64,000 nucleotides of DNA from Closterium sp. NIES-65. Lineage: Eukaryota > Streptophyta > Zygnematophyceae > Desmidiales > Closteriaceae. Position numbers and translations under genes: made by a program. Below, in pieces: positions 3-63,634 of this stretch (the stretch's first letter is position 1; every line of letters begins with the position of its first letter). The stretch is taken from NCBI GenBank assembly GCA_948144175.1, contig CANXME010002307.1, forward strand, positions 687,501-751,500, in the 5' to 3' direction. The notes beneath the pieces were generated by a model that was given only the letters and a program-made list of their open reading frames with translations, did not search any database and had not been told where the DNA came from.

Positions 3-908
3 TGGGAACGGGACGGGCTGGACCCGGCAGAGTTCTTCCGGCGAATGGTGGTAACGTTGCCCGGCAAAGCGGAGACCTTTTACCGCATGACGCGGGACGA
101 AGTGCTCGAAGAGCTGGCTTGTGGAGAGGTTGAAAACCCAACAGCGCGGTTTGTCGAGCTGCTGAAGAAGGATTTTCTGGGGCAAACTAAATCGAGAGTG
201 GAGGAATTCCGCGAGTTCTGCCGAGGAAAAGACGAGTCCCTACTAGCCTACTACTGCCGACTGAGGGAGCTTGTGGACGATTTGGAGAGCCGTGATGAAC
301 GGCTACTAGTTCGCAAGTTCATCCGAGGCTTAGACAAAGATCTGCCGAATGTGGTGCGAAACACGGTGTACGCCGTGGGTGCAGATATTACTCTGAAGGA
401 AGTAGACGGATTGGCTAAACGGACGGAGCACACGCAGAGGATGTTGGACCTGGAAGACGGGGAAGTGCGTCCCAAAGCGAAGTCGTCGTGGGCGGCGGCT
501 GCTCTGGTGGAGGCGCCTCTCGGTGGACCACCGCGGGCGGACGCACGGCGGTGTCACGAATGTGGGGAATTGGGCCATTTGAAACGCGAGTGCCCTAAGC
601 TGCCAGTGTGTGGAAACTGCGGACGGAAAGGGCACAAGGACGACGCATGTTATGGCCGGCGCCGCTCCAAGGAGACCCCCAGCAAAGAAGAGCTACAGGC
701 GGAGATTAATAGGTTACAACTGCGATTGGAGGCGAAGCCTAAAGTGGAGCCGAAAGCCCGAGCTATGCTTGCGTACGAGGAGGTCGAAGGGGAGGAAGAA
801 AGTGAAGGCGAGTATCTGCAGGCAAGCGGCTTTATGGCGTTACCACGGGAGAGAGAGAGGACCTCGACCTCCGGCTCCGAGGGAGCCAGTCGTCCGAAAG
901 TCGCGTGA
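3..908 (+). CDS. gag: Gyp-A gag (5' partial), capsid and two CCHC zinc knuckles
   Basis: The frame is already open at base 3 (before the first ATG at 45), so the true start is probably upstream of the window. The middle part, from about the ATG to residue 140, has the helical retrotransposon-gag look (residues such as FVELLKKDF and LRELVDDLE). Two knuckles of type C-x2-C-x4-H-x4-C lie at residues 170-183 and 189-202 counted from the ATG at 45, and should bind the genomic RNA. A Glu-rich tail follows. The frame ends at TGA 906-908, overlapping the downstream protease frame in the -1 phase, so pol may be made by -1 frameshifting; no classical slippery heptamer was seen. Confidence 0.85.
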   Translation, partial: WERDGLDPAEFFRRMVVTLPGKAETFYRMTRDEVLEELACGEVENPTARFVELLKKDFLGQTKSRVEEFREFCRGKDESLLAYYCRLRELVDDLESRDERLLVRKFIRGLDKDLPNVVRNTVYAVGADITLKEVDGLAKRTEHTQRMLDLEDGEVRPKAKSSWAAAALVEAPLGGPPRADARRCHECGELGHLKRECPKLPVCGNCGRKGHKDDACYGRRRSKETPSKEELQAEINRLQLRLEAKPKVEPKARAMLAYEEVEGEEESEGEYLQASGFMALPRERERTSTSGSEGASRPKVA

Positions 909-1384
909 GCAGTGTGAGAGAGCCACGAGGCAACGTGCATGAGGGGAGTAGTACCTCCGAACTGAGGCGCCACCCCAACGAGAGACTCGTGTGCCAGGCC
1001 TCCGTCTTGATAGCCGAAAAGGGGAGCATGACCGTGGGTGGGCTGCCAGTGGGGCAAGCAATCATTGACACCGGTGCTCACCACGTGTTGATCGGGAAGG
1101 GACTGGCGCGGCATCTGAAGCTGGACATGCCTGGGAGGCTCATGCAGAGAGGTATCCTACTCATGACCGCCGAGGGAGGGGAGCCAAAATGGATGCCGCG
1201 GACGGTACGGCCCATCGAGATTATACTGCTCCCCGGCACGGACAAAGAATGCTGCATCCGCGTGACATGTGGCGTCTCAGAGTCCGAAGATTATGATACG
1301 CTGGTCGGCATGGATATGCTTTACCGGGTTGGCGCCACCATTTTTACCTGGCAGGAGAAGGTGTTGTACCGCGTGCACTACTAG
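905..1384 (+). CDS. Gyp-A retropepsin-type aspartic protease
   Basis: The signature IIDTGAHHVLIG (D-T-G active site) follows a short N-terminal stretch, and a second conserved block, LVGMDML, lies near the end, as expected for a gypsy protease that cleaves the polyprotein. There is no ATG at the frame opening (a GTG at 905 overlaps the gag stop), so it is presumably expressed as a gag-pol fusion. The frame closes at TAG 1382-1384 but continues in the same phase through the linker and the methyltransferase, so the TAG is probably a decayed CAG rather than a true end. Confidence 0.8.
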   Translation: MSSVREPRGNVHEGSSTSELRRHPNERLVCQASVLIAEKGSMTVGGLPVGQAIIDTGAHHVLIGKGLARHLKLDMPGRLMQRGILLMTAEGGEPKWMPRTVRPIEIILLPGTDKECCIRVTCGVSESEDYDTLVGMDMLYRVGATIFTWQEKVLYRVHY

Positions 1385-1606
1385 GACGCAGAAAGTTCCG
1401 TGGGTACTCTGCCTGTGAAGTTCGTTAAGCAAGAGCCGCGGGAGGCCTACGGGGCTCGGGCAGCAGACCTGGGACCAGTGCTGGACGACTGGAGCTGGGA
1501 GAGATACGCGGAGGAGTACAAACGGCGAATAGAAAGGAGGAGGCAGGGGCGAGAACCGACCTCGCTGAAAGAAAGAGTGACCCGGCTCTGGACCTAGGAA
1601 GGAGCG
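1385..1606 (+). other. Gyp-A pol linker between protease and methyltransferase
   Basis: This stretch is open in the same frame as the protease and methyltransferase, bounded by TAG at 1382-1384 and 1595-1597. It encodes about 70 residues rich in Arg, Glu and Trp with no recognisable domain. Both stops are TAG, consistent with single C-to-T changes from CAG. If both are repaired, protease, linker, methyltransferase and RT form one polyprotein. Confidence 0.6.
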
Positions 1607-3943
1607 GTGTGCATCATTGAGCTGTACGGTGGCATAGGCACGGGACTGGCAGCGGTGTTGCGGGCGGGTTGCAGGGTGCGGAAGTGGATTCACGTCAAGA
1701 GAGATCCAGTGGTGCGCCGGATGGCCCAGCATCACGCCCGGCTGCTGCTAGCCGAATATCCCGATCAGCTAGCCGAGTCCGCCCTACCCGCTAAAGACGA
1801 GGAGGGGGTGGACGATGTAAGGGATATCACGGAGGAGACACTGGAGAAGTGGGGGAAAATTGATGTCATCATTGCTGGATGGGAATGTCAGTGTTATTCT
1901 CGGGCAGGAGAGGGGATGGGAATGGAAGAAATCTGCGGTGCCTCCTTCAGGGATTTAAAGCGGGTACTGGGGATGGTTCAGGCGAAGCAGGGAGAAGTGT
2001 TATACATCCTAGAGAATGTGGATTCTGCAGACGATCGCAGGGAGCACGTGCGAAGGGCGTTCGCTGAAGTAGAAACCGCCGTCGGCCGGGGGCAAGCGGT
2101 TGACGCGTTGCAGCTGGGTTCCAGAGTGCACCGGCCCAGGAGGTATTGGCAGAACGGGATCTCAGAAGCAAGTTTACAGCACTCTCTGGCTCAGATGCAG
2201 CGGCCGGAACCAAGGCTGGTCAGTGACATTCTGGGCCCCAACCGTCTGCCAGCGCCTATCTCAGTGCCGGATCACCCATCCCAGTACCAATGTAATGTGC
2301 CGGGGAAGCCGAGACAGGCGCTACTGACACTCGTGTCATACGTGGACGCCTACGGATTCGTGATGGAGGGAGACCTGCCTGGGCCCGGGATGATCTACGA
2401 CGTCATCGGAAAGAGGTGGGAGCAACCAACGGCAGAGGAGCGGGAGTTAGCCATGAGACATCTGCTGGGAGGTACCGCGCACCCCCGAGTGACGGAGCCT
2501 CAAAGGAGGGCGGCGCTGGGTAGGGCCGTGGATCTGAACGTCATGGCGTGGCTAGTGGAGACCATTCGCATGCATCTAAAGCGGAAGGAGCTCCAACGCG
2601 GCATAGAAGTCAGCCAGCTGTACCAGGAGGAGGAGGAGGCGGAGCAGCAGAAGCGCCAACAGAGAGCCATAGAGGAGCAACAAGAAGCCCGCATCCTGGA
2701 AGGATGGGCCTACATGGCAGTGGAAGCGGGGAGCGGGTCTGCCGACCAAGAGATACTGCCGCCAGACGGGGAGAATAGTGTTACGGTGGAGAAGCCAAGC
2801 CAGGAGAGGGGACCAGAGGACGCTTGGCCCATAGGCTCCGGAATGGGGGCAGAGGCGGCACAGGCATTACAGGAAGTGCTGAAGCAGCACCGCAAGATGT
2901 TCGCCTACACGTTAGCCGAGCTAGGGCAATGCAACTCTCACCAAATGCAGGTGAAGCTGAATACCGAGATGCCTAAATACCAGAGGAAACGGAGAATGAG
3001 CCCAGGCGACTTGGACATCTGCAGGGAGAAATGCGCGGAGCTGTTAGCGGCAGGCCTCATTCAGCTTTCTGACATTGTTTACGCAGCGGCGGCAGTGGTA
3101 GTTGCGCGGAAGGATCTCACTGGGGAAGTGTCGGCAAGGAGAATGTGTGGGGACTACCGAGGGCTTAATAGAGTGACAGTGGCAGACAGGTATCCCATGC
3201 AATCGGCGGAAGAGATATTCGATCGGCTGCAAGGAGCAGTGGTGTTCAGTACGCTGGACCTCCGGCAGGGGTTTAATCAAATACCGATCAAGGAGGAGGA
3301 CCGGAAGAAGACGGCCTTTCACGGGCCCGATGGGCTATACGAGTGGAATTTCATGCCCTTCGGCATGAAGAACGCGCCAGCACTATTCCAACGGGTGATG
3401 GACTCTGTGCTGAGGAATGTACCAGCGGCAGCCTGCTACATCTATGATGTAGTCGTGTTCAGTGCATCAGCTGAGCAACACGTGAAGGACGTGAGCGACA
3501 TGTTGGACGCCATTCAAGCAGCCGGGCTGACATGCCACCCGAAGAAATGCAGCTTCGGGAACAGCAGGGTGAAGTACCTGGGCTTTGAAGTACAAGGGGG
3601 GCAGCTGAGCATCCAGCAGGCTAAGGTAGAGGTGCTGGATCGAGTCCCCGCTCTTAAGGACCGCAGCACACTGAGGGCAGTATTGGGCTTCCTGAACTAC
3701 TACAGGAAGTTCGTACCCAACTTCAGCCGCACCGCCTCAGTTCTGAACAGGTTGTTGCGAGAGGATCAGGCGTGGCAATGGGGAGAGGAAGAACAAGGGG
3801 CATTCAAGGCCCTCCTCAAGGCGGTGAAGACTGAGACCGTCCTTACCTTGCCCAGTAAGGAGAACCCGCTGATTCCCGTCTCCTCCCATCATCGTCTCGT
3901 CCTGTCCTTGCGTTGCTCTGACTACTTCTACCAACCGTCCTGA
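1607..3943 (+). CDS. Gyp-A pol: DNMT3-like C5-cytosine methyltransferase fused to reverse transcriptase
   Basis: Residues are counted from the GTG at 1607. The methyltransferase covers about 1-325: motif I ELYGGIGTG (5-13), motif IV GWECQCYS with the catalytic Cys at 94, motif VI ENV (136-138), motif VIII SRVHRPRRYW (172-181), and a C-terminal block around 285-320 (LGRAVDLNVM) resembling motifs IX-X. GIxTGL and the R-x-RYW block point to the DNMT3 type. Deviations: Glu instead of Pro before the catalytic Cys, and Lys where motif II usually has an acidic residue. A Glu/Gln-rich probable coiled coil (about 325-370) leads to RT (about 420-755), with the LDLRQGFNQI and MPFGMKNAPALFQ blocks. The YxDD box reads YIYD (611-614), so the first catalytic Asp is lost. 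There is no ATG at the start, so the enzyme must come from a polyprotein. The last 20 or so residues after about 3875 are foreign sequence. Confidence 0.9.
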   Translation: MCIIELYGGIGTGLAAVLRAGCRVRKWIHVKRDPVVRRMAQHHARLLLAEYPDQLAESALPAKDEEGVDDVRDITEETLEKWGKIDVIIAGWECQCYSRAGEGMGMEEICGASFRDLKRVLGMVQAKQGEVLYILENVDSADDRREHVRRAFAEVETAVGRGQAVDALQLGSRVHRPRRYWQNGISEASLQHSLAQMQRPEPRLVSDILGPNRLPAPISVPDHPSQYQCNVPGKPRQALLTLVSYVDAYGFVMEGDLPGPGMIYDVIGKRWEQPTAEERELAMRHLLGGTAHPRVTEPQRRAALGRAVDLNVMAWLVETIRMHLKRKELQRGIEVSQLYQEEEEAEQQKRQQRAIEEQQEARILEGWAYMAVEAGSGSADQEILPPDGENSVTVEKPSQERGPEDAWPIGSGMGAEAAQALQEVLKQHRKMFAYTLAELGQCNSHQMQVKLNTEMPKYQRKRRMSPGDLDICREKCAELLAAGLIQLSDIVYAAAAVVVARKDLTGEVSARRMCGDYRGLNRVTVADRYPMQSAEEIFDRLQGAVVFSTLDLRQGFNQIPIKEEDRKKTAFHGPDGLYEWNFMPFGMKNAPALFQRVMDSVLRNVPAAACYIYDVVVFSASAEQHVKDVSDMLDAIQAAGLTCHPKKCSFGNSRVKYLGFEVQGGQLSIQQAKVEVLDRVPALKDRSTLRAVLGFLNYYRKFVPNFSRTASVLNRLLREDQAWQWGEEEQGAFKALLKAVKTETVLTLPSKENPLIPVSSHHRLVLSLRCSDYFYQPS

Positions 3944-4524
3944 CTGCAATCGCATTCGGACTGCGTGTTTGTGCTAAGTTCCCTCCCTAACCCATCTAGA
4001 CTGCGGAAATGGCTTCACTATGAGACTGCTTATCTTGAGAAGAAATCACAGTATATTGCGAAAACAAACACGCAGTAGCAGTCCCATGGCCCAGGAACCT
4101 CTATTATTGCACCCACCCTTCTCTAGCTAAGCATGGCTACCAACAGATTAGTGCTAGCAGCCGAGCTTCGCCACCCTTGCAGTTATCCTGCCTTCCTCCA
4201 GCTGGCGGGTGTGACTTCCAGCTCCCCTGGACTCGGTGTCTGCACACAAGCAAGAAACAAACACATGCATCCCAGCAAACCCCATTCACCCCCACTTCCG
4301 CCACGTAAGCTCGCCATCCCTTCTCCAGGCCCGCCACAGGTTCGTCCCAGACTTAACCCGCTGCCTGCCAATGCCGAGCTGCCCACCCCTTCCTGCTGTC
4401 GCTTCTGCACCCCGTTAACCGCCTCCTCGACTAAATACAAATGTACACCTTGTTTCCTCCTTGCCTCTCTACAGCCTCCCCTTTTTTGTCAGTGATCTTT
4501 AGGATTACCCTCAAGAACTCTGAC
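3876..4524. other. Unassigned 0.65-kb stretch between Gyp-A and Cop-H
   Basis: No conserved domain, LTR pair or clear exon was recognised. It is pyrimidine-rich on the + strand between about 4130 and 4480. Small open frames here resemble nothing known. It may be host DNA or an eroded repeat trapped between two truncated retrotransposons. Confidence 0.4.
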
Positions 4525-5640
4525 AAGAGCAGCGGGGGGGGGGAGAGGGGCAGTGCGGTAGGGGAAGAGACAGTAAAAGGGAACCGACTCGTCGAACGTG
4601 ACGTCCTGAGAGGGGAAGACACAGGGCGAGGTGGGGTGGTAAAACTGCCAAACAGGCGCGTCAAGGACAAAGACACAGGGAACAGCGCGGGCGAAGAGCT
4701 TGTCCGCGGTGGTATCGTGGACAAAGGCACGAGCACCCCAGACCCAGAAACGCGACGCATCGCCAACCTTCCCCGTCCACAGCAGTGTGGGCGAGGTCTC
4801 CGGCAAGGACACACGGGGCAGAGGTTGAGCTGATGCGCGGCGTACCGAACCGCAAACAGCCACAGAAAATGGGGGGCAGTCGCACGGATCATGGAGGTAC
4901 GAGCAACCTCCATGACTAAGCCAATGCAGCATTCAGCAACCCCATTCTGCTGCAGAGAGGCCGGAAGCGTGAACGTCTGGCGGATGCCGTGCTCCGCACA
5001 GAAGGCTGCAAAGAGGTCTGAGAAGAACTCACCACCTCTCTCAGAGTGCAAACGCAGGACGGGAAAGTCGGACTTGAACTGCTCGGGGAGTAGGAGACAA
5101 ACAGCGCGGATTTAGGGGATCAAAATACCAAGGACATCTCCCTTGCAATGCAATGGGAAGACCGTGGTGTAACGCGTGTAGTCGTCGACGACCAGCAGGA
5201 AGTACCGCTTGTGGCCCGGTCCACGGACGCGGGCTGGGCCCCACACGTCCAGGTGGAGAGTCTGCAGGGGAGCCTCTGTGGGAGGGAACGAGGAGGAGTG
5301 AGGAGCGGCACGCTGCCGCCCCTCGACACAGGGAAGACAGGGAGGAGCAGGCGAGGGCTGGAGGGGAGGAAGAACCCTGGGAAGACCAGAGATAAGGACA
5401 CTGCGGTGCATGCTGCGAAGACGCTGCACCGAGGGGTGACCAAGGCGGTGGTGCCAAAGGAGGGTCTGGTGCGACCAGGCGCGACACGAGCAGGGGCCTG
5501 ACAACTGACCTGACGTAGACGCAGACGCAGCTACCTGAGGGGACTCAGTGGTCAGTGTGTACCGGCCCGACCCCGGTTGCCGACTGAAGGTAGCCAGGTA
5601 ACGACCCGTCTGAGCACACGTGCAGTGTGTCACACGCTCG
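4525..5640 (-). pseudogene. Cop-H pre-integrase and integrase (broken)
   Basis: Reading leftwards: a pre-integrase segment with HHRLGHPSVQRL and a CLPCVEGRQ zinc-binding part, then the integrase core beginning LQTLHLDVWGPARV (first catalytic Asp) with YFLLVVDDYTRYTTVF, then HSERGGEFF (second Asp) and the QQNGVAE block. Two or more frame changes split it, near 5110 and 4850. The C-terminal domain keeps VPCVF and HPTSPCVFPSQDVTFDES before the truncation. It is a decayed copy of the copia integrase that inserts cDNA into the chromosome. Confidence 0.8.
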
Positions 5641-6118
5641 TAGGCAGGGGTGAACTAGTGAAAACCCGCATCTGGAGCACTGAACACGCCACCAAGTTGC
5701 ACGAACAGCTAGCCTCACCAGCACCGAGAGCAGCAGGCTCTATACCTGGGTCAGGCGGTACGCACAGGTAAAAGGCACGGTCAGCACTAGTAGGCAATGC
5801 ATACATGGCAGTGAGAATAGCATCATAGTCAAGAGCAAATATATCTACCCTGTGCCCAAGCAGCTCCACCCAGTTGGGGAGCTCAGCCTCATCGCCAAAC
5901 TCGGTACGCGAGGCGTCGCTCAGACAAGCGAAGCAGCAGGACTGTGTGTGACTAAGCATCCCGCAAGCCTGACCAGTCCGATCACATGTGCGAATGACGT
6001 ACGGGCAGCGAACGATACTCAAAGACCCTCTACTCTGAGCGTACCACTCACGAAGCTGCTGGGGCGCAAGTGTCTCATGCGGACGCCGCTGCAGCTGCAG
6101 CTGGCCACTGCCAGACAC
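5630..6118 (-). pseudogene. Cop-H gag C-terminal region with stretched zinc knuckle
   Basis: The segment contains the APQQLREWYAQ peptide and then a cysteine-histidine motif of the form C-x13-C-x4-H-x4-C (about 5933-6010), followed by a FALDYDAILTAMYALP segment. The same arrangement recurs in Cop-C, E and G. By position it is probably the nucleocapsid of gag, directly before the protease. The protease motif that should follow is not intact in this copy. No UBN2-type capsid region was found upstream. Confidence 0.7.
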
Positions 6119-6255
6119 TCCCGACCGACCAGCTCCAGGGCGCCAGTCACGACGGCTACCGGCACAAACCCAACTAGCGTACCACTCACGAAGCTGCTGG
6201 GGCGTGAGAGACTCGCGCGGACGTCGCTGGAGCTACATCTAGCCACCGCCAATAG
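6037..6255. repeat. Direct duplication of the PQQLREWY-coding segment in Cop-H
   Basis: Two related copies, about 6037-6110 and 6176-6250, each carry the + strand run CACGAAGCTGCTGGGGCG. Read on the - strand this encodes a PQQLREWY-type peptide, followed in each copy by a GC-rich remainder. Cop-G holds three copies of the same unit at the same place. Confidence 0.75.
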
Positions 6256-6304
6256 CAGCAGTAGCAGTGGTAGTGGCAGTAGTAGCAATAGTAGTGCGGG
6301 TAGG

Positions 6305-6410
6305 GCAGGCACGGTAAGCAGGTAGGCAGGCAGGCAGGCACGCAGGCAGAAAGGCAGGCAGGCTGGCAGGTAGGCAGGCAGGCTGGCAGGCAGGCAGTGC
6401 GCTAACAAGG
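6305..6410. repeat. CAGG-type short tandem repeat in the Cop-H leader
   Basis: A run of degenerate GGCA/CAGG units spans roughly 6325-6400 within the leader of Cop-H. It has no coding sense of its own; long runs of Leu/Pro/Ala on the - strand are by-products. Confidence 0.8.
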
Positions 6411-6673
6411 CAGGTGCTCACCAATGGCGGGAAGAGCAGACGCTCGCCGGGCGAGCAAGGCCGGCGCTCGGCGGGCACCTGCACGAGGTCCAGGGGCGGC
6501 GCGCTGGCCTAGGGCAGCAAGAGGCAGCGCGAGGGCTGCAGGACGGCGCGCGCAGCGCAGCACGTCACAAGGCAGGGCAGGCAGGCAGGCAAGCAGGTGC
6601 AGTACAACACATGGGGTAGCGCGGTAACTGCAACGGTAGGTGGGCCCGAAAAAAAGACGGTCCTACGGACCTA

Positions 6674-6687
6674 GTGCTCTGATACCA
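6674..6687 (-). promoter_or_regulatory. Cop-H primer binding site (initiator tRNA-Met type)
   Basis: Read on the - strand the sequence is TGGTATCAGAGCAC, directly after the LTR end ...AACA. This is the classic plant-type PBS complementary to the 3' end of initiator tRNA-Met, which primes minus-strand DNA synthesis. Confidence 0.85.
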
Positions 6688-6821
6688 TGTTAGAATCTAG
6701 TAGTAGGAATGATTGAACTATGAAAGAGTTGGGTACAAATATGAAACCCTAAAGTGGGCTGTACCCCATATTGGCTACCCCACTATAGCCTAAACATATA
6801 TAGCAGATATAACATTTGATA
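6688..6821 (-). repeat. Cop-H 5' LTR (about 134 bp)
   Basis: It lies directly outside the PBS and is alignable with the Cop-E LTR at 16185-16317, sharing the block GTACCCCATATTGGCTACCC. On the - strand it ends in CA; the opening dinucleotide has decayed from TG to TA. No partner copy is present because the element is truncated. Confidence 0.8.
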
Positions 6822-7275
6822 GGAGGAGGAGGAGGAGGAGGAGGAGAAGGAGGAGGAGGAGGGGGGGGGGGGGAGGACAAGGAGGAGGATGAGGAGGAAG
6901 AGGAGGAGGAGGAGGAGGAGGAGGAGGAGGAAGCAGAGGAGGAGGAGGAGGAGGAGGAGGAGGAGGAGGAGGAGGAGGAGGAGGAGGAGGAGGAGGAGGA
7001 GGAGGAGGAGGGGGGGGTGGAGGACGAGGAGGAGGATGAGGAGGATGAGGAGGAGGAGGAGGAGGAGGAGGAGGAGGAGGAGGAGGAGGAGGAGGAGGAG
7101 GTGGAGGAGGAGGAGGAGGAGGAGGAGGAGGCCGAGAAGGAGGAGGAGGAGGAGGAGGAGGAGGAGGAGGAGGAGGAGGAGGAGGAGGAGGAGGAGGAGG
7201 CAGAGGAGGAGGAGAAGGAGGAGGAGGAGGAGGAGGAGGAGGAGGAGGAGGAGGAGGAGGAGGAGGAGGAGGATG
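6822..7275 (+). repeat. GGA trinucleotide repeat tract (about 450 bp)
   Basis: The tract is almost pure GGA/GAG with small G-runs and a few GAA, GAT and GTG variants. In one + frame it reads as a poly-Glu run of well over 100 residues, open into the K/R/G-rich sequence that follows. Either it is a plain microsatellite next to Cop-H, or it is the acidic N-terminal part of the candidate host gene. Confidence 0.85.
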
Positions 7276-8376
7276 TGGCGGCAATGAAGGGACGGGGTGG
7301 GCGAGGCAGACGGGTGAGTGGTACAGGGAAGGTGGGGGGCCGGACTCGCCATTCCCGAAAACGCGGGGCAGTTAACGCCCCGCGCGGCAAAGCAGCGGGC
7401 AAATCAAAGGCGCGTAAGGTGAAGGGCGAAAGTGAAGGGGGTGGTAAAAAGCAAGGGAGCTAGGGAGCAAAAGGGGATGGAGAAGGAAAGGGTGGCCGTG
7501 TCAAAGGAGTTCCAGTGGGTACCGGCAAGAAAGAACCCGTCGGTAAACGTCGCAGCGGCCGCCAAAGCACCCCGCGGAAAGGTGGCAACAACAAGGTGCA
7601 GGCAACAAAAAAACCAAAGGGACAGCAGAAAGGTGAGCACTGTGGCCAATACACATGGCTTGGTGGTTGTTCTCTCTGCTCAACCGTGCCAAATAACACC
7701 ATTCTCCACATTGTTTCTTCCCTGCAGGGAAGGAGAAGGTCGACGAATCTTGTAATCAAGGTAAAGCATCTTGTTACAAAACATTACCCTGCTAAACCCG
7801 ATTTAGACTCAAATCGTTGATCTTACGTATGCATGTGTACCCCTGTATTGAAACTAATCGACTCTAATTTTTTTATCCTGCTCCCCCTAAATCTCAGCCC
7901 CTCGCGTTACAGACATTGGGCCGCCGGTAAGTGTGCAACGGATGCAGCTAACGAAGGGGGCTGGGAGAGCGAGTGTTACACTGCTATCCACAGAAGCCCC
8001 ACGGTTCTACACGCCAGCGTGATAGTGTAAGGGCACATAGGACGGCTGCAGAAGACGTTGATCCCCTTGGCCAGAGGGGGGATTATTCACACCCTTTTCC
8101 TCCGCTCATGGGTGCCCTATGTAAAAGTGCGGAGCACGAGCAGTTTGTTACACGGGAGGAGTTCTAGGTGCTGCGGTCGGAGATGTACACCATGTTTGTT
8201 CAGCTCGGCTTGCGTCGTGGAGTACCTGCCAGTTATGCCGGGGGTTCCGCAGCCGTGCCTATGGCTGGTACCCCGCCGCTGATGAGTGCAGTGGACAAGG
8301 CACGAGTGCTAGTGTTGCAGGAGACAAACCCATTCCCGGTATGTGGCGGGCTAGATGGGGCGGCTTGGGGTTGCCG
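7276..8376 (+). CDS. Candidate multi-exon cellular gene of unknown function, cut by Cop-J
   Basis: Three GT-AG introns can be placed so that the frame stays open: 7633-7727, 7761-7897 and 7927-7993. The exons before and between them encode a Lys/Arg/Gly-rich chain (with GKRRSGRQSTPRKGG), then KEKVDESCNQ and RVTDIGPP, and exon 4 continues from 7994. In-frame TAGs at 7461-7463 and 8165-8167 interrupt the same frame, but the downstream part stays open to 8376, where Cop-J begins. The upstream frame merges with the poly-Glu tract. No domain was recognised. Splicing is inferred from sequence only; this could be a pseudogene or chance. Confidence 0.35.
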
Positions 8377-34044: not shown

Positions 34045-34276
34045 CTTTGCTTGTACTGTGATTTATATATACCTGCACTTGCATGCTTACCCTTGCTAGG
34101 TTGAGATTATTGCCTTGTTTGTTCATCTTGATGTATAGCTCTGCATGTGATCTGGCCTTGCGGCCTTGTGCTTGTGCTCAGATTGTGTGGTGACGTTGTG
34201 ATCCACCCTGAGCTTGCCTTGCTTCTCTTGACTGGTCTTGTGACCTCTTGTTCTCCCCCACTTTGCCTATGGGGTG
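34045..34276 (+). other. Cop-C 3' untranslated region with polypurine tract
   Basis: Non-coding stretch between the RNase H stop and the 3' LTR. It ends with ATGGGGTG, the polypurine tract; the same CCTATGGGG(G)TG block precedes the 3' LTR of Cop-E, F and G. Confidence 0.75.
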
Positions 34277-34402
34277 TGTCAAACTTATATTCTATAGTCT
34301 GTGTAGGCTGTAGTGGGGTAGCTCATATGGGGTACAATACTTTTGGGTTTCCGACTTGTACTCCTCATGCTGCTCAATGCAATCATTCCCTCATTTCTCA
34401 CA
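34277..34402 (+). repeat. Cop-C 3' LTR (126 bp)
   Basis: TGTCAAACTTAT...TTTCTCACA, followed by the TSD AGTTT. Confidence 0.95.
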
Positions 34403-36231
34403 AGTTTGATGTACCCTATAATCCTATTAATGAGACCCTCTTTGGCTACTCAGCACAGCAGAAACCACTACTCCTCGAGATGTTATGCAATGGACGAGGC
34501 CTCCAGGCACTGGTGGACAGCGGTGCATCTCACTCGGTGTGTGACCGCGGAGCATTGGAGAAAATTGGAGAGAAGGCGGAGGGGACCCGGTTTTCAGCAA
34601 CCATGGTGGACGGTACGAAACTTCCTATCCTCGGCAAAGCATCACCGCAGCTGCATATAGGTGCGTTGAGGTGGAAGCCGAAGCTACCAGTCACCAACAT
34701 CAAAGGGTTAGATTTTTTCTTGGGGCGAGATTTTCTGAAGCGGTTCAACCCCGAGATCGATTGGATCAACAGCAAGGTGTGCATCTACAACAACGGGAAG
34801 CGGATAGCACTACGAACCTGGACAGATACAGGGGACGTACCTGAGACAACACTGGCACGGTTTGAACAGACAGTGAACGAGAGTAACACGGGTTACCTAG
34901 CACTGGTCATGGCAGCAGCAGAGGAGGAGAAGACGAGTTTCGAGCTCCCTGTAGCAGTGAAGGAGGTCTTGGAGCAGTACAAAGATATAATGCCCGACAA
35001 CCTACCTGCAGGCGTACCTCCAGCACGCACCCACGAGCATGAGATCATGGAGGAACCAGGTGCGAAACCCGTCTCACTTGCACCATACCGACTGAGTCCG
35101 ACCGAACTAACAGACATGAAGAAATAGATAGAGTATCTACTAGATAGACAACTGATCTGCCCATCCACCTCTCCATACGGTGCACCAGTTCTCTTCACTT
35201 CAAAACCAAACGGCAGCTTACGGATGTGCATCGACCACCGCGCACTGAACAAACAGACAGTTAAAAACAAATACCCCATACTGCGCATCGACGACTTACT
35301 GGACCAACTGCGTGGTGCAACAGTCTTCTCGAAGCTGGACCTACGGTCGGGTTACTGGCAGATCAAGATGGCGGACAACTCGATCCACAAGACGGCGTTC
35401 CGTACTCGATACGGCTCCTACGAATACTTTGTGATGCAGTTAGGACTCTACAACGCACCAGCGACGTTCCAGGCGGAAATGAACCATATTCTATGGCCCC
35501 TGCTGGACGAGTGCGTACTGGTGTACATGGACGATGTCCTCATCTACTCCAAGAACATGAAGGAGCACGTGGAGCATCTGCGGAAGGTGTTCAAGATCCC
35601 GGGGAAAAACAAGTTCTACGTGAAGCTGTCGAAGAGCGACTTCGCCCTGAAGAAGGTGCAGTTTCTCGGGCACATGATGAGTGCCGAGGGCATACACGCG
35701 GACCCGCGGAAGATCGAAGCCGTCAAGAAGTGGAAAGTTCCAGAGAACGTGAAGGAGTTGTAGCAGTTCCTAGGATTCGCCAACTACTACAATAGGTTCG
35801 TGCCATAGTACGCTAAGATTGCAGCGCCACTGACCGACCTACTGAAAAAGGATACGCCCTTCATTTGGGATACTCCGCATCAGCAAGCCATGGAACAGCC
35901 TCAGACAGCACTAACCACAGCCCAAGTACTCATCCTTCTAGACCTCGAGAAGGACTACATAGTTGAAGCAGATGCTAGTGACCAGGCAATCGGAGCAGTA
36001 CTGATGCAGGATCACGGGAACAGTTTACACCCTATCGCCTACCTCAGTAAGAAACTGCACAGAGCAGACCTAAACTACCCCATCCACGACAAGGAAGCCC
36101 TAGCTATAGTCGTAGCCTTCAAGTCGTGGAGGTGTTACCTTGAGGGAGCCAAGACGACAGTCTATACTCACCACTGCAGCCTCAAATACCTGAAGTCGCA
36201 GCCTACGCTCTCATGACGACAGGTACGGTGG
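34403..36231 (+). pseudogene. Gyp-B protease, reverse transcriptase and RNase H
   Basis: Protease: QALVDSGASHSVCD (D-S-G). RT: RMCIDHRALNKQT, FSKLDLRSGYWQI, intact LVYMDDVLIYS, QFLGHMMSAEGI. RNase H: VEADASDQAIGAVL and YPIHDKEALAIV. Four stops break one frame: TAG 35125-35127 (MKK-stop-IEYL), TAG 35761-35763 (VKEL-stop-QFLG), TAG 35806-35808 (VP-stop-YAK) and TGA 36214-36216 (LS-stop-RQ). The first three fit CAG-to-TAG and the last CGA-to-TGA. VTDH of RNase H reads VYTHH. Confidence 0.9.
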
Positions 36232-37794
36232 GTGGATTTCTTGGAGACCCACTTCCACTACGACATCATCTACAAGCCCGGGCCACACAACAAAGCAGAC
36301 GTGTTGAGTCACCCAGGTCATGTAACAGGCATCCAACTCGACGGGATGAACCCTCTGCTTAAAGGTCTATTCCAACATGGGTACTCCGTGGACGGCGAGA
36401 TAGCAACGGCAAAGAAACAGAAACTGTTACAGTCGGAGAAAGACCTAGCGGTAAGAAAGGGTTCAGGAAAGATTTGGGTACCGAATTACGCCCCGCTACG
36501 GCAGATCCTATTGGAGGAGTTCTACGACGTACCATACGCGGGACATTTTGGGAGCAACAAGACGTTAGCGGGAATAGCGAAGTATGAATACTGGCCCCAG
36601 ATGGCAGCAGATGTACAGCAGTTCGTCACCTCCTACGACAGGTGCCAGCGGATGAAGAGCAGCAAGCAGAAGAAAGCAGGGTTACTTCAGCCTCTACCCG
36701 TACCGGAGCAGCCATGGCAGGTCGTTAGTCTCGACTTCATCACAGGACTTCCCTCGACCTCACGGGGACATGATTCCATCCTCGTAGTCATTGATAAGTT
36801 CTCCAAAATGGGGCACTTCCTACCGACCAACGCCACCGCCACAGCAGAAGCAACTGCTCGCCTCTTCTTCGACCGCATCATCACCATCCACGGCATCCCC
36901 GCTACACTCATCTCAGACAAAGACCCAAAATTCACCAATAAGTTTTGGAAGGAGCTCATGGGATTATTGGGGACTAAACTTGCGATGTCCTCAGCATACC
37001 ACCCCCAGACTGACGGACAGACAAAGCGACTCAATCAAGTGGTTGAACAGTTACTACGCACAGCTTGCAAGGACGACGTCAGCCACTGGGACACACAGTT
37101 ACCGACCCTAGAGTTCGCTTACAACAACGCATCACATGCGGCCACAGGGAAAACTCCTTTCTTCCTGTGTTACGGACGGGAACCACTCACACCACAGCAG
37201 CATACCACACCGGCACACGTCCAAGCCGCACATGACTTCGTCACCACCATGAAGCAGCTATGGGAGAAGACTCAGCGAAGACTCACCACGATGCAGACCT
37301 CCCAGAAGCAATATGCCGATCGTCAGCGACGTGATCACTCAGTAGCAGTCGGGGATCAGGTGCTTCTTGACACGCGCAACTTGAATCTGTCTCACCTCCC
37401 ATCCAAACTCCGGCCTCGCTTCTGTGGTCCTTTTCTCGTTGAGGCACAGGTGACACCAGTTACATTCCGCTTGCGCTTACTAGATATGTGGAAGCTTCAC
37501 AATGCTTTCCATGTGCAGCTACTGAAACCCTACAAGGACCCCAACCAACAGTTCCAGGGACGGCAGCTACCGCCACCTCCACCTGTTCTTGTGCAGGACG
37601 AAACCGAGTACGAGATTGAGCGCGTCCTCTCTCATCGGCGCCGCGGTGGCAGGACCCTCGAGTTCCTGATACGCTGGAAGGGATACGACCCCACTGAGGA
37701 CAGTTGGGTTGCAGAAGCTGATATGGGCAATGCACGCTGTGCTCTCAAGGACTATCTTGTCAAGCAGGATGTATCTCACGCCACCCAGCTTTGA
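36232..37794 (+). CDS. Gyp-B integrase with C-terminal chromodomain
   Basis: An open 520-residue stretch. The zinc-binding part is damaged (GHFGSNKTLAGI retains His; the CxxC reads DRCQRM). The core has VSLDFITGLP and LISDKDPKF (both Asp), but the third block reads SSAYHPQTDGQTKRLNQ: Lys replaces the catalytic Glu of the usual QTER. A GPF/Y-like block (RPRFCGPFLV) follows. The last 55 residues, YEIERVLSHRRRGGRTLEF to WKGYDPTEDSWV, form a chromodomain, which in chromoviruses steers integration to marked histones. It ends right before the PPT and 3' LTR. Confidence 0.92.
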   Translation: MDFLETHFHYDIIYKPGPHNKADVLSHPGHVTGIQLDGMNPLLKGLFQHGYSVDGEIATAKKQKLLQSEKDLAVRKGSGKIWVPNYAPLRQILLEEFYDVPYAGHFGSNKTLAGIAKYEYWPQMAADVQQFVTSYDRCQRMKSSKQKKAGLLQPLPVPEQPWQVVSLDFITGLPSTSRGHDSILVVIDKFSKMGHFLPTNATATAEATARLFFDRIITIHGIPATLISDKDPKFTNKFWKELMGLLGTKLAMSSAYHPQTDGQTKRLNQVVEQLLRTACKDDVSHWDTQLPTLEFAYNNASHAATGKTPFFLCYGREPLTPQQHTTPAHVQAAHDFVTTMKQLWEKTQRRLTTMQTSQKQYADRQRRDHSVAVGDQVLLDTRNLNLSHLPSKLRPRFCGPFLVEAQVTPVTFRLRLLDMWKLHNAFHVQLLKPYKDPNQQFQGRQLPPPPPVLVQDETEYEIERVLSHRRRGGRTLEFLIRWKGYDPTEDSWVAEADMGNARCALKDYLVKQDVSHATQL

Positions 37795-62295: not shown

Positions 62296-63634
62296 AACCG
62301 TCACTCTGCGGATGATACTGTATCGTGAAGTCCTTCGGTGGGTGATGCCTGTGGCCTGTAGCAACTAATCCAATTCTCCCATGAACTCCATCCCTTGATC
62401 AATCAGCACCTCCCCACACGCCCCAAACCTTGTGAGTACTTGCTCTTCGAATGCTTCAGCTATCCTGACTGAGTTTTTGTTGGGTAGGGCCCTTACTTCC
62501 TCCCACTTGTTACCATGCTCGATCATGACTAGAATGTATCTCTCTCCCCTCCGGCTCAGTGGCATTTCTCCTGCTAAGTCTAAGGACCATTTGAACCCAA
62601 TCCCATGTATGGGCAGCAACTGTAGCTCCTTCCTACCTCTCTCCAGCTCTGCTCTATTCCTACTACAGAGCTCGCATCCCTCCACCCACTCTCTGATATC
62701 CTTCCTCATCCCTTCCCACCACCAGCCAGTTTGCACCAGTTGTGCGGTTCTCAAGCTCCCATAGTGCCCCAGTTGCCGATGGACGCTCTGTATAATCTGA
62801 TCCCGCTCAGTCTTCCATAGTACCAGCTTCCACCCGTTGCATGTATTATTCTGAAGCTGCTCTTGGTGCCAGCGGTAATGGGCCATCGCGCTCTGGCTCA
62901 CTCGCTCACTGGAGTTGTCTCTGTTGTCTTTCCTTGCACCCATTCCATGACCTCTTAATCATCCCAGACGTCCTCGGGCCCCTTCCTCCGCACCCGACTG
63001 GCTCCTTCCTCGTCTATTTCCCTCACCAATGCTACTAGGCACGTAGTAGGCCTGTCCTCCGGGGGGTTCCGTGAGAGCCCGTCAACGTGCTGCATGGTCT
63101 TGCCCGCCCTTTGCTGAATCAAGAAGTCATATTTTTGTAGCCGCATTGCCTTTCGAGCATTCATCCTTGTTAGCGCCTGTTTTGTCATCAGCCAGGTTAA
63201 CTGCTGGGGATCTGTCACTAGCTCAAAAAATCTCCCTTGCAGGTACACCCGGAAGTGAGTAATCGCTCACACCGCCGCCAGCCCCTCACCTTCGTATGAG
63301 CTGTAATTGGCCTCGGCGGGGTTGCAGTTCCGACTGGCGAATGTCACCACCTTCTCTTCGCCCTCTCGCTTGTGGCACAGGATTGCCCCAATCCCCGCGC
63401 TGCTCCCGTCCGTATAGAGCATGAACGAGTCCTCCTTGTTGGGCAGCATCAGCACTGTAGCGGTCTTCACCACTCTCAGCAGAGCTTTCAAAGCTTCCTG
63501 TCCCACTTCCTCCCACTGCCACTTCTAGTCCTCCCTCAGAAATCGGTTCAGGACTGCTGATGTCTTACTGAAATTTGGTATGAACTTCCGGTAGTAGTTA
63601 AGGAACCCCGGCACCGCCCGCAGGTTTCTCCTTG
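62296..63634 (-). mobile_element. Gyp-A2: fragment of the methyltransferase-type gypsy family
   Basis: - strand fragment from the end of RT to mid integrase. FLNYYRKFIPNFSKTSAVLNRFLRED and the following residues match the end of Gyp-A RT closely, so this is the same or a sister family. It does not reach the methyltransferase region. Bounded by an LTR fragment on one side and an inverted-repeat arm on the other. Confidence 0.85.
62296..63634 (-). pseudogene. Gyp-A2 RT end, RNase H and integrase
   Basis: RT tail, then TAG 63525-63527 in RED-stop-KWQW (Gln in Gyp-A). RNase H: MLYTDGSSAGIGAIL, NYSSYEGEGLAAV; a stop near 63265; ELVTDPQQLTWLMTKQAL, HVDGLSRNP. After a stop near 62955, integrase: zinc-binding HRQLGHYGSLRT with CELCSRNR, WSLDLAGEMPLSRRGERYILVMIEH (first Asp), VLIDQGMEFMGEL (second Asp), then past a TAG to YHPQSDG, where the LTR fragment begins. 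The segment with the catalytic Glu is missing. Confidence 0.85.

Follow-up and report, generated by a model that had tools for sequence, protein, structure and literature searches.

Layout of the element

The window analysed here is a 64,000-nucleotide stretch of the genome of the alga Closterium sp. NIES-65 (contig CANXME010002307.1, positions 687,501 to 751,500). A gypsy element fills its first 3.9 kb on the + strand. The element is almost certainly a decayed copy of a Ty3/gypsy long terminal repeat (LTR) retrotransposon that carries a C5-cytosine methyltransferase (MTase) in Pol, between the protease (PR) and the reverse transcriptase (RT). Its parts, together with a second RT fragment of the same family, are as follows.

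3..908, +, gag with a CCHC zinc knuckle (Retrotrans_gag 7.3e-5, just under the cut-off; zf-CCHC 2.3e-5)
905..1384, +, aspartic protease with D-T-G-A, terminated by an in-frame stop at 1382 (gag-asp_proteas 3.2e-6)
1385..1606, +, stretch connecting PR and MTase, in the PR/MTase frame, with a second in-frame stop at 1595
1607..2638, +, C5-cytosine methyltransferase domain with motifs I, IV (E-C-Q), VI, VIII, IX-like and X-like (profile, PDB and structure matches)
1619-1645, +, motif I, ELYGGIGTG
1880-1891, +, motif IV, WECQ, including the catalytic Cys codon, with Glu where C5-MTases have Pro
2006-2023, +, motif VI, ILENVD
2129-2155, +, motif VIII, HRPRRYWQN
2438-2455, +, motif IX-like, ERELAM
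2519-2539, +, motif X-like, GRAVDLN
2639..2880, +, weakly conserved MTase-RT linker, end approximate (11-45% identity in 21 pairs, window residues 331-425)
2881..3868, +, Ty3/gypsy RT region, start approximate (RVT_1 5.2e-32, match at 3140-3592)
63420..63632, -, RT fragment of the same family (tblastn, 66% identical over 71 residues)

The MTase and the RT lie in one open frame of 778 codons (1607-3943), which matches both PF00145 (E 2.1e-5, residues 68-145) and RVT_1 (E 5.2e-32). The gag is 64% identical to that of a relative, P0007, over 257 aligned positions. The PR matches are borderline, with gag-asp_proteas just under its cut-off and Asp_protease_2 just over. The assignment to Ty3/gypsy is based on gag, PR and RVT_1 in the window, and on RVT_1 followed by RT_RNaseH in relatives such as P0045. 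A tblastn search at E 1e-3 found no second MTase match in the 64-kb window.

A first-pass annotation of this DNA had proposed a gypsy element with its own C5-MTase, arranged as gag-PR-MTase-RT, the MTase lying between PR and RT in the same reading frame. Such an element is indeed present, here and in other copies, and the domain matches confirm the order. The shared frame stands in part: PR, MTase and RT share one frame, although the stops at 1382 and 1595 separate PR from MTase. The counterpart of the connecting stretch is uninterrupted in gene models of relatives, for example P0001.

The window copy cannot function as an element because of these stops, a frame change, an altered RT box and truncation. 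The gag frame differs from that of PR. The RT catalytic box is altered to YIYD (nucleotides 3437-3448), with the loss of one Asp; the box is unaltered in eight of the nine relatives where it was located. Resemblance to relatives ends near 3868, where RNase H begins. At the other end, the copy begins within gag, and the 5' end of gag and any 5' LTR lie beyond the window edge. The MTase reading frame remains open.

Fold and motifs of the methyltransferase

Several lines of evidence assign the domain to the C5-MTases. In a phmmer search of the PDB, the window domain alone matches DNMT3B and DNMT3A (E from 8.4e-7) and HhaI (4.3e-4), and a profile of seven family members matches DNMT3B at 6.6e-11. 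All seven members match both PF00145 and TIGR00675 dcm. The agreement of the single-sequence, family-profile and domain matches shows that the similarity is not due to chance. The domain has a class I MTase fold and contains motif I, the Cys of motif IV, the Glu of motif VI, and motifs VIII and X, all numbered by eye. In a structural model, residues 1-326 (nucleotides 1607-2584) align to DNMT3, the nearest fold among solved structures. The 50 structure entries listed include DNMT3, a CpG-specific MTase (4dkj), HhaI and DNMT1; the absence of other families from these 50 is uninformative.

The PF00145 search that the first-pass annotation had suggested thus gives a match, and the motifs it had named (ELYGGIGTG, the motif IV Cys, blocks VI and VIII and a plausible IX-X) can be placed in the sequence. 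Its domain end at 2620 is about right. Its term "DNMT3-like" is fair for the fold and the nearest solved relative, and is not established for descent, as described below. The identity between the window domain and the catalytic domains of DNMT3A and DNMT3B is about 16-20%, and no ADD or PWWP match was found in the Closterium element.

The domain departs from other C5-MTases at motif IV, which reads E-C-Q instead of P-C-Q, a point that the earlier annotation had overlooked. The Pro-Cys signature of the C5-MTases is therefore missing. Residues were counted over 53 rows, many of them close copies, with each count restricted to the rows covering that site. Glu precedes the catalytic Cys in 40 of 41 rows, the window included, and the only exception is P0044 with Pro. 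Pro occupies this site in all ten reference enzymes (human DNMT3A, HhaI and eight phage enzymes); DNMT3A and DNMT3B read P-C-N. To our knowledge, Pro before the motif IV Cys is near-universal in C5-MTases. The other signature residues are mostly retained: the catalytic Cys in 41 of 42 rows, the motif VI Glu in 41 of 41, the second Gly of motif I in 43 of 46, and the Gly of motif X in 26 of 26.

P0044 (287 residues) is the sole family member seen with the canonical P-C-Q, which may show the ancestral state. P0030 and P0034 carry the motif IV Glu yet group with P0044 (support 93/88). On these few rows, the Glu could predate Closterium, it could have several independent origins, or P0044 could have lost it. 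The family-wide replacement of Pro-Cys-Gln by Glu-Cys-Gln is new as far as the literature was searched; for KnitGypsy-Dnmt3, a published element of Klebsormidium, the text consulted gives neither the motif IV letters nor the order of domains (PMC5890265).

Relatives, linkage and constraint

Three protein searches, each scoring only the 7,992-7,998 candidates that share most words with the query, recovered at least 52 distinct clusters. They comprise 19 from Closterium sp. NIES-53, 27 from NIES-54, one each from NIES-65, NIES-67 and Naga37s-1, and P0030, P0034 and P0044. The figure is a lower bound because only the best 8,000 or so candidates were scored per search. None of the matches bears the name Klebsormidium. 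Scans for carriers of the W-E-C motif in viral contigs (15 pattern stretches) and prokaryotic contigs (22) revealed no relative, a weak negative because each scan relied on one short pattern.

The best match of the window MTase is P0001, at 70% identity. Among the first 16 homologues, 15 also match the gag, PR or linker-RT of the window (blastp, E 1e-3), some over short lengths; P0003 is the lone one without such a match. A single protein, P0041 (NIES-65), contains PF00145 as well as RVT_1; P0042 (NIES-54) has the order CCHC-PR-MTase, and P0032 (NIES-67) has PR sequence ahead of the MTase. The gene models P0010, P0014 and P0022 also contain copia pieces, probably stitched in by the gene predictor. 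Because some models are mixed in this way, the linkage argument is built on models of the P0041 and P0042 type. In all, many copies from four strains (NIES-53, -54, -65 and -67) have the MTase joined to gag/PR or RT.

This linkage bears on the simplest alternative, that a host MTase pseudogene or exon was captured once, by chance, in one dead element. The window copy, broken at the gag/PR and PR/MTase junctions, in the RT box and at the 3' end, would suit such an event, but the recurrence of the linkage across four strains makes it extremely improbable. A chance match or a lone host fragment, the case in which the first-pass annotation would have failed, is ruled out by the profile matches and the linked relatives.

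A related E-C-Q MTase lies elsewhere in Pol in P0034 (529 residues), after RNase H and not between PR and RT. This position perhaps reflects a separate insertion.

Conservation along the polyprotein was compared in 11 aligned sequences. Pairs sharing at least 150 MTase and at least 120 RT columns were kept, giving 21 pairs, which are not independent of one another, from 7 proteins. MTase identity exceeds linker identity in 21 of 21 pairs, with means of 0.50 for the MTase, 0.27 for the linker and 0.69 for RT. MTase and RT likeness correlate (rho 0.64; 17 of 5040 permutations as high). The pattern fits long joint inheritance with constraint on the MTase, although protein identity is weaker evidence than Ka/Ks since gene models favour open frames.

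The surroundings of the element are rich in other retrotransposon remains, which give the window the look of a nest of elements. A decayed copia element (gag_pre-integrs, SH3_retrovirus) occupies 4431-6687 on the - strand, past the broken end of the gypsy element. The sequence GCTCTGATACCA at 6676-6687, on the - strand of this copia element, is presumably its Met-tRNA primer site; TGTTAG adjoins it at 6688, and no partner LTR starting with TGTTAG was found in the window. About 450 bp of almost pure GGA repeat, with few interruptions, follow at about 6820-7272. Between 8000 and 64000, many of the 27 frames of at least 220 codons resemble, by eye, parts of copia- or gypsy-type elements. A second gypsy element, of the chromodomain kind, lies at 34147-37794 on the + strand, with PR, integrase and chromodomain identified by Pfam and RT by tblastn. 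No MTase was seen in it, its middle part (35128-36231) being covered by tblastn alone.

Origin and possible function

The source of the MTase was addressed by a tree in which 11 family rows were placed with human DNMT3A, HhaI and eight phage MTases, the phage proteins being cut to 350 residues. The family rows form one side of a branch with support of 100/100 and a very long stem of 1.93 changes per column. A tree forced to join the family to human DNMT3A is worse by 0.42 log-likelihood units (p-AU 0.378, where AU denotes approximately unbiased), in a comparison whose sequences outside the family were one DNMT3, one from a bacterium and eight from phages. Descent from DNMT3 is thus neither shown nor rejected by this tree.

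It is possible, though we would not favour it, that the domain was acquired from a phage-, giant-virus- or bacterium-like C5-MTase and not from a host DNMT3. A profile built from Closterium members only ranks all eight fetched phage MTases over human DNMT3A (40.3-71.5 versus 38.8 bits), and a wider family profile does so for six of the eight. The phage family phrog_116 matches across window residues 1-329 (E 3.7e-8; the best of the seven members reaches 1.3e-17), spanning motifs I-X, and sequence likeness extends to phrog_363. The S-R-A-G following motif IV appears Dcm-like in our reading. These scores carry the caveat that the phages were picked as good matches from a large collection, and the phage enzymes are nearer to DNMT3A than the family is. 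They also differ from the family in that the eight fetched have P-C-Q and are separate genes in their records.

Retrotransposons with their own MTase are already known from Klebsormidium and Symbiodinium (PMC5890265), in agreement with the precedent in charophyte algae and dinoflagellates that the first-pass annotation had cited. By its published description, KnitGypsy-Dnmt3 of Klebsormidium nitens is a gypsy element with LTRs from a streptophyte alga; a Dnmt3-related MTase lies within its Pol frame, key residues are kept, and purifying selection was reported for it (de Mendoza et al. 2018, PMC5890265). The Closterium element likewise has its MTase in a gypsy Pol frame. It belongs to another algal class, the Zygnematophyceae. 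KnitGypsy-Dnmt3 is described as having repeats arranged DIRS-like (PMC5890265), and the Closterium window contains no element end. SymbioDIRS-Dnmt3 and SymbioLINE-Dnmt of Symbiodinium also bear C5-MTases, but are described as DIRS and LINE elements and not gypsy (PMC5890265).

By analogy with these systems, we consider it somewhat probable that Closterium gypsy elements carry in Pol an MTase that is made within Gag-Pol and methylates the complementary DNA (cDNA) of the element or its landing site. The detailed route is more tentative, falling a little short of what we would call probable. The MTase would be produced as part of Gag-Pol and packed with RT into the particle. Its targets for methylation would then be cytosines in the freshly made cDNA of the element itself or in chromatin where the element lands. 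A methylated copy might pass as host DNA, or evade attack on unmethylated foreign DNA; alternatively, it might be kept silent, with little burden for the host, for as long as conditions stay the same. Published support is of an indirect kind: CG methylation in yeast is described for two SymbioDIRS-Dnmt3 enzymes, and cDNA methylation was proposed for DIRS elements (PMC5890265). For the Closterium family, the architecture, its spread over copies and strains and the retained catalytic residues are directly observed, and both MTase activity and self-methylation are putative.

A number of observations weigh against this proposal. Catalysis may be changed or lost because motif IV lacks Pro, and P0045 has Ser for the catalytic Cys. 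Only 29 of 41 rows have Asn behind the motif VI Glu, and 9 have His there; the motif VIII Arg is found in 27 of 31, and 20 of 29 have the Arg three positions further on. MTase identity is lower than that of RT in all 21 pairs. In yeast, no methylation was seen with the Klebsormidium gypsy DNMT, a result described by its authors as inconclusive (PMC5890265). CpG depletion as a sign of self-methylation is not seen in this one copy: the observed/expected ratio is 0.84 (gag-PR 0.98, MTase 0.81, RT 0.68), and six other window stretches, two of them overlapping, give 0.67-0.92. The replacement of Pro, the Ser of P0045 and the loss of Asn in part of the family would all suit a captured MTase that no longer transfers methyl and is retained to bind DNA or RNA or to help assemble the particle. 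We regard such a role as improbable, since the near-complete retention of Cys, motif VI Glu, and the Gly residues of motifs I and X would be unneeded for mere binding. Also unlikely, in our view, is a separate Glu-Cys-Gln lineage of C5-MTases, long maintained in green-algal gypsy elements at two Pol sites (PR-RT in Closterium, after RNase H in P0034), with altered chemistry or a changed substrate, for example nascent cDNA or an RNA/DNA hybrid.

The Closterium lineage of MTase-bearing gypsy elements is new as far as searched. Among the matches listed in the open-licence literature, none describes a Closterium element with an MTase, and the main text of a Closterium genome-size paper (PMC10407611) has no words beginning with "methyl" or "gypsy". 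Retrotransposons that carry the type of enzyme used for their silencing are a puzzle with few examples. The Closterium elements add a second lineage among the streptophytes, from the class nearest to land plants, and their dozens of copies allow tests of ancient versus repeated capture, of selection on the MTase, and of self-methylation of element cDNA. Glu in place of Pro persists among copies some of which share just 40-50% identity, and so offers a natural test of how strictly C5-MTases require Pro-Cys.
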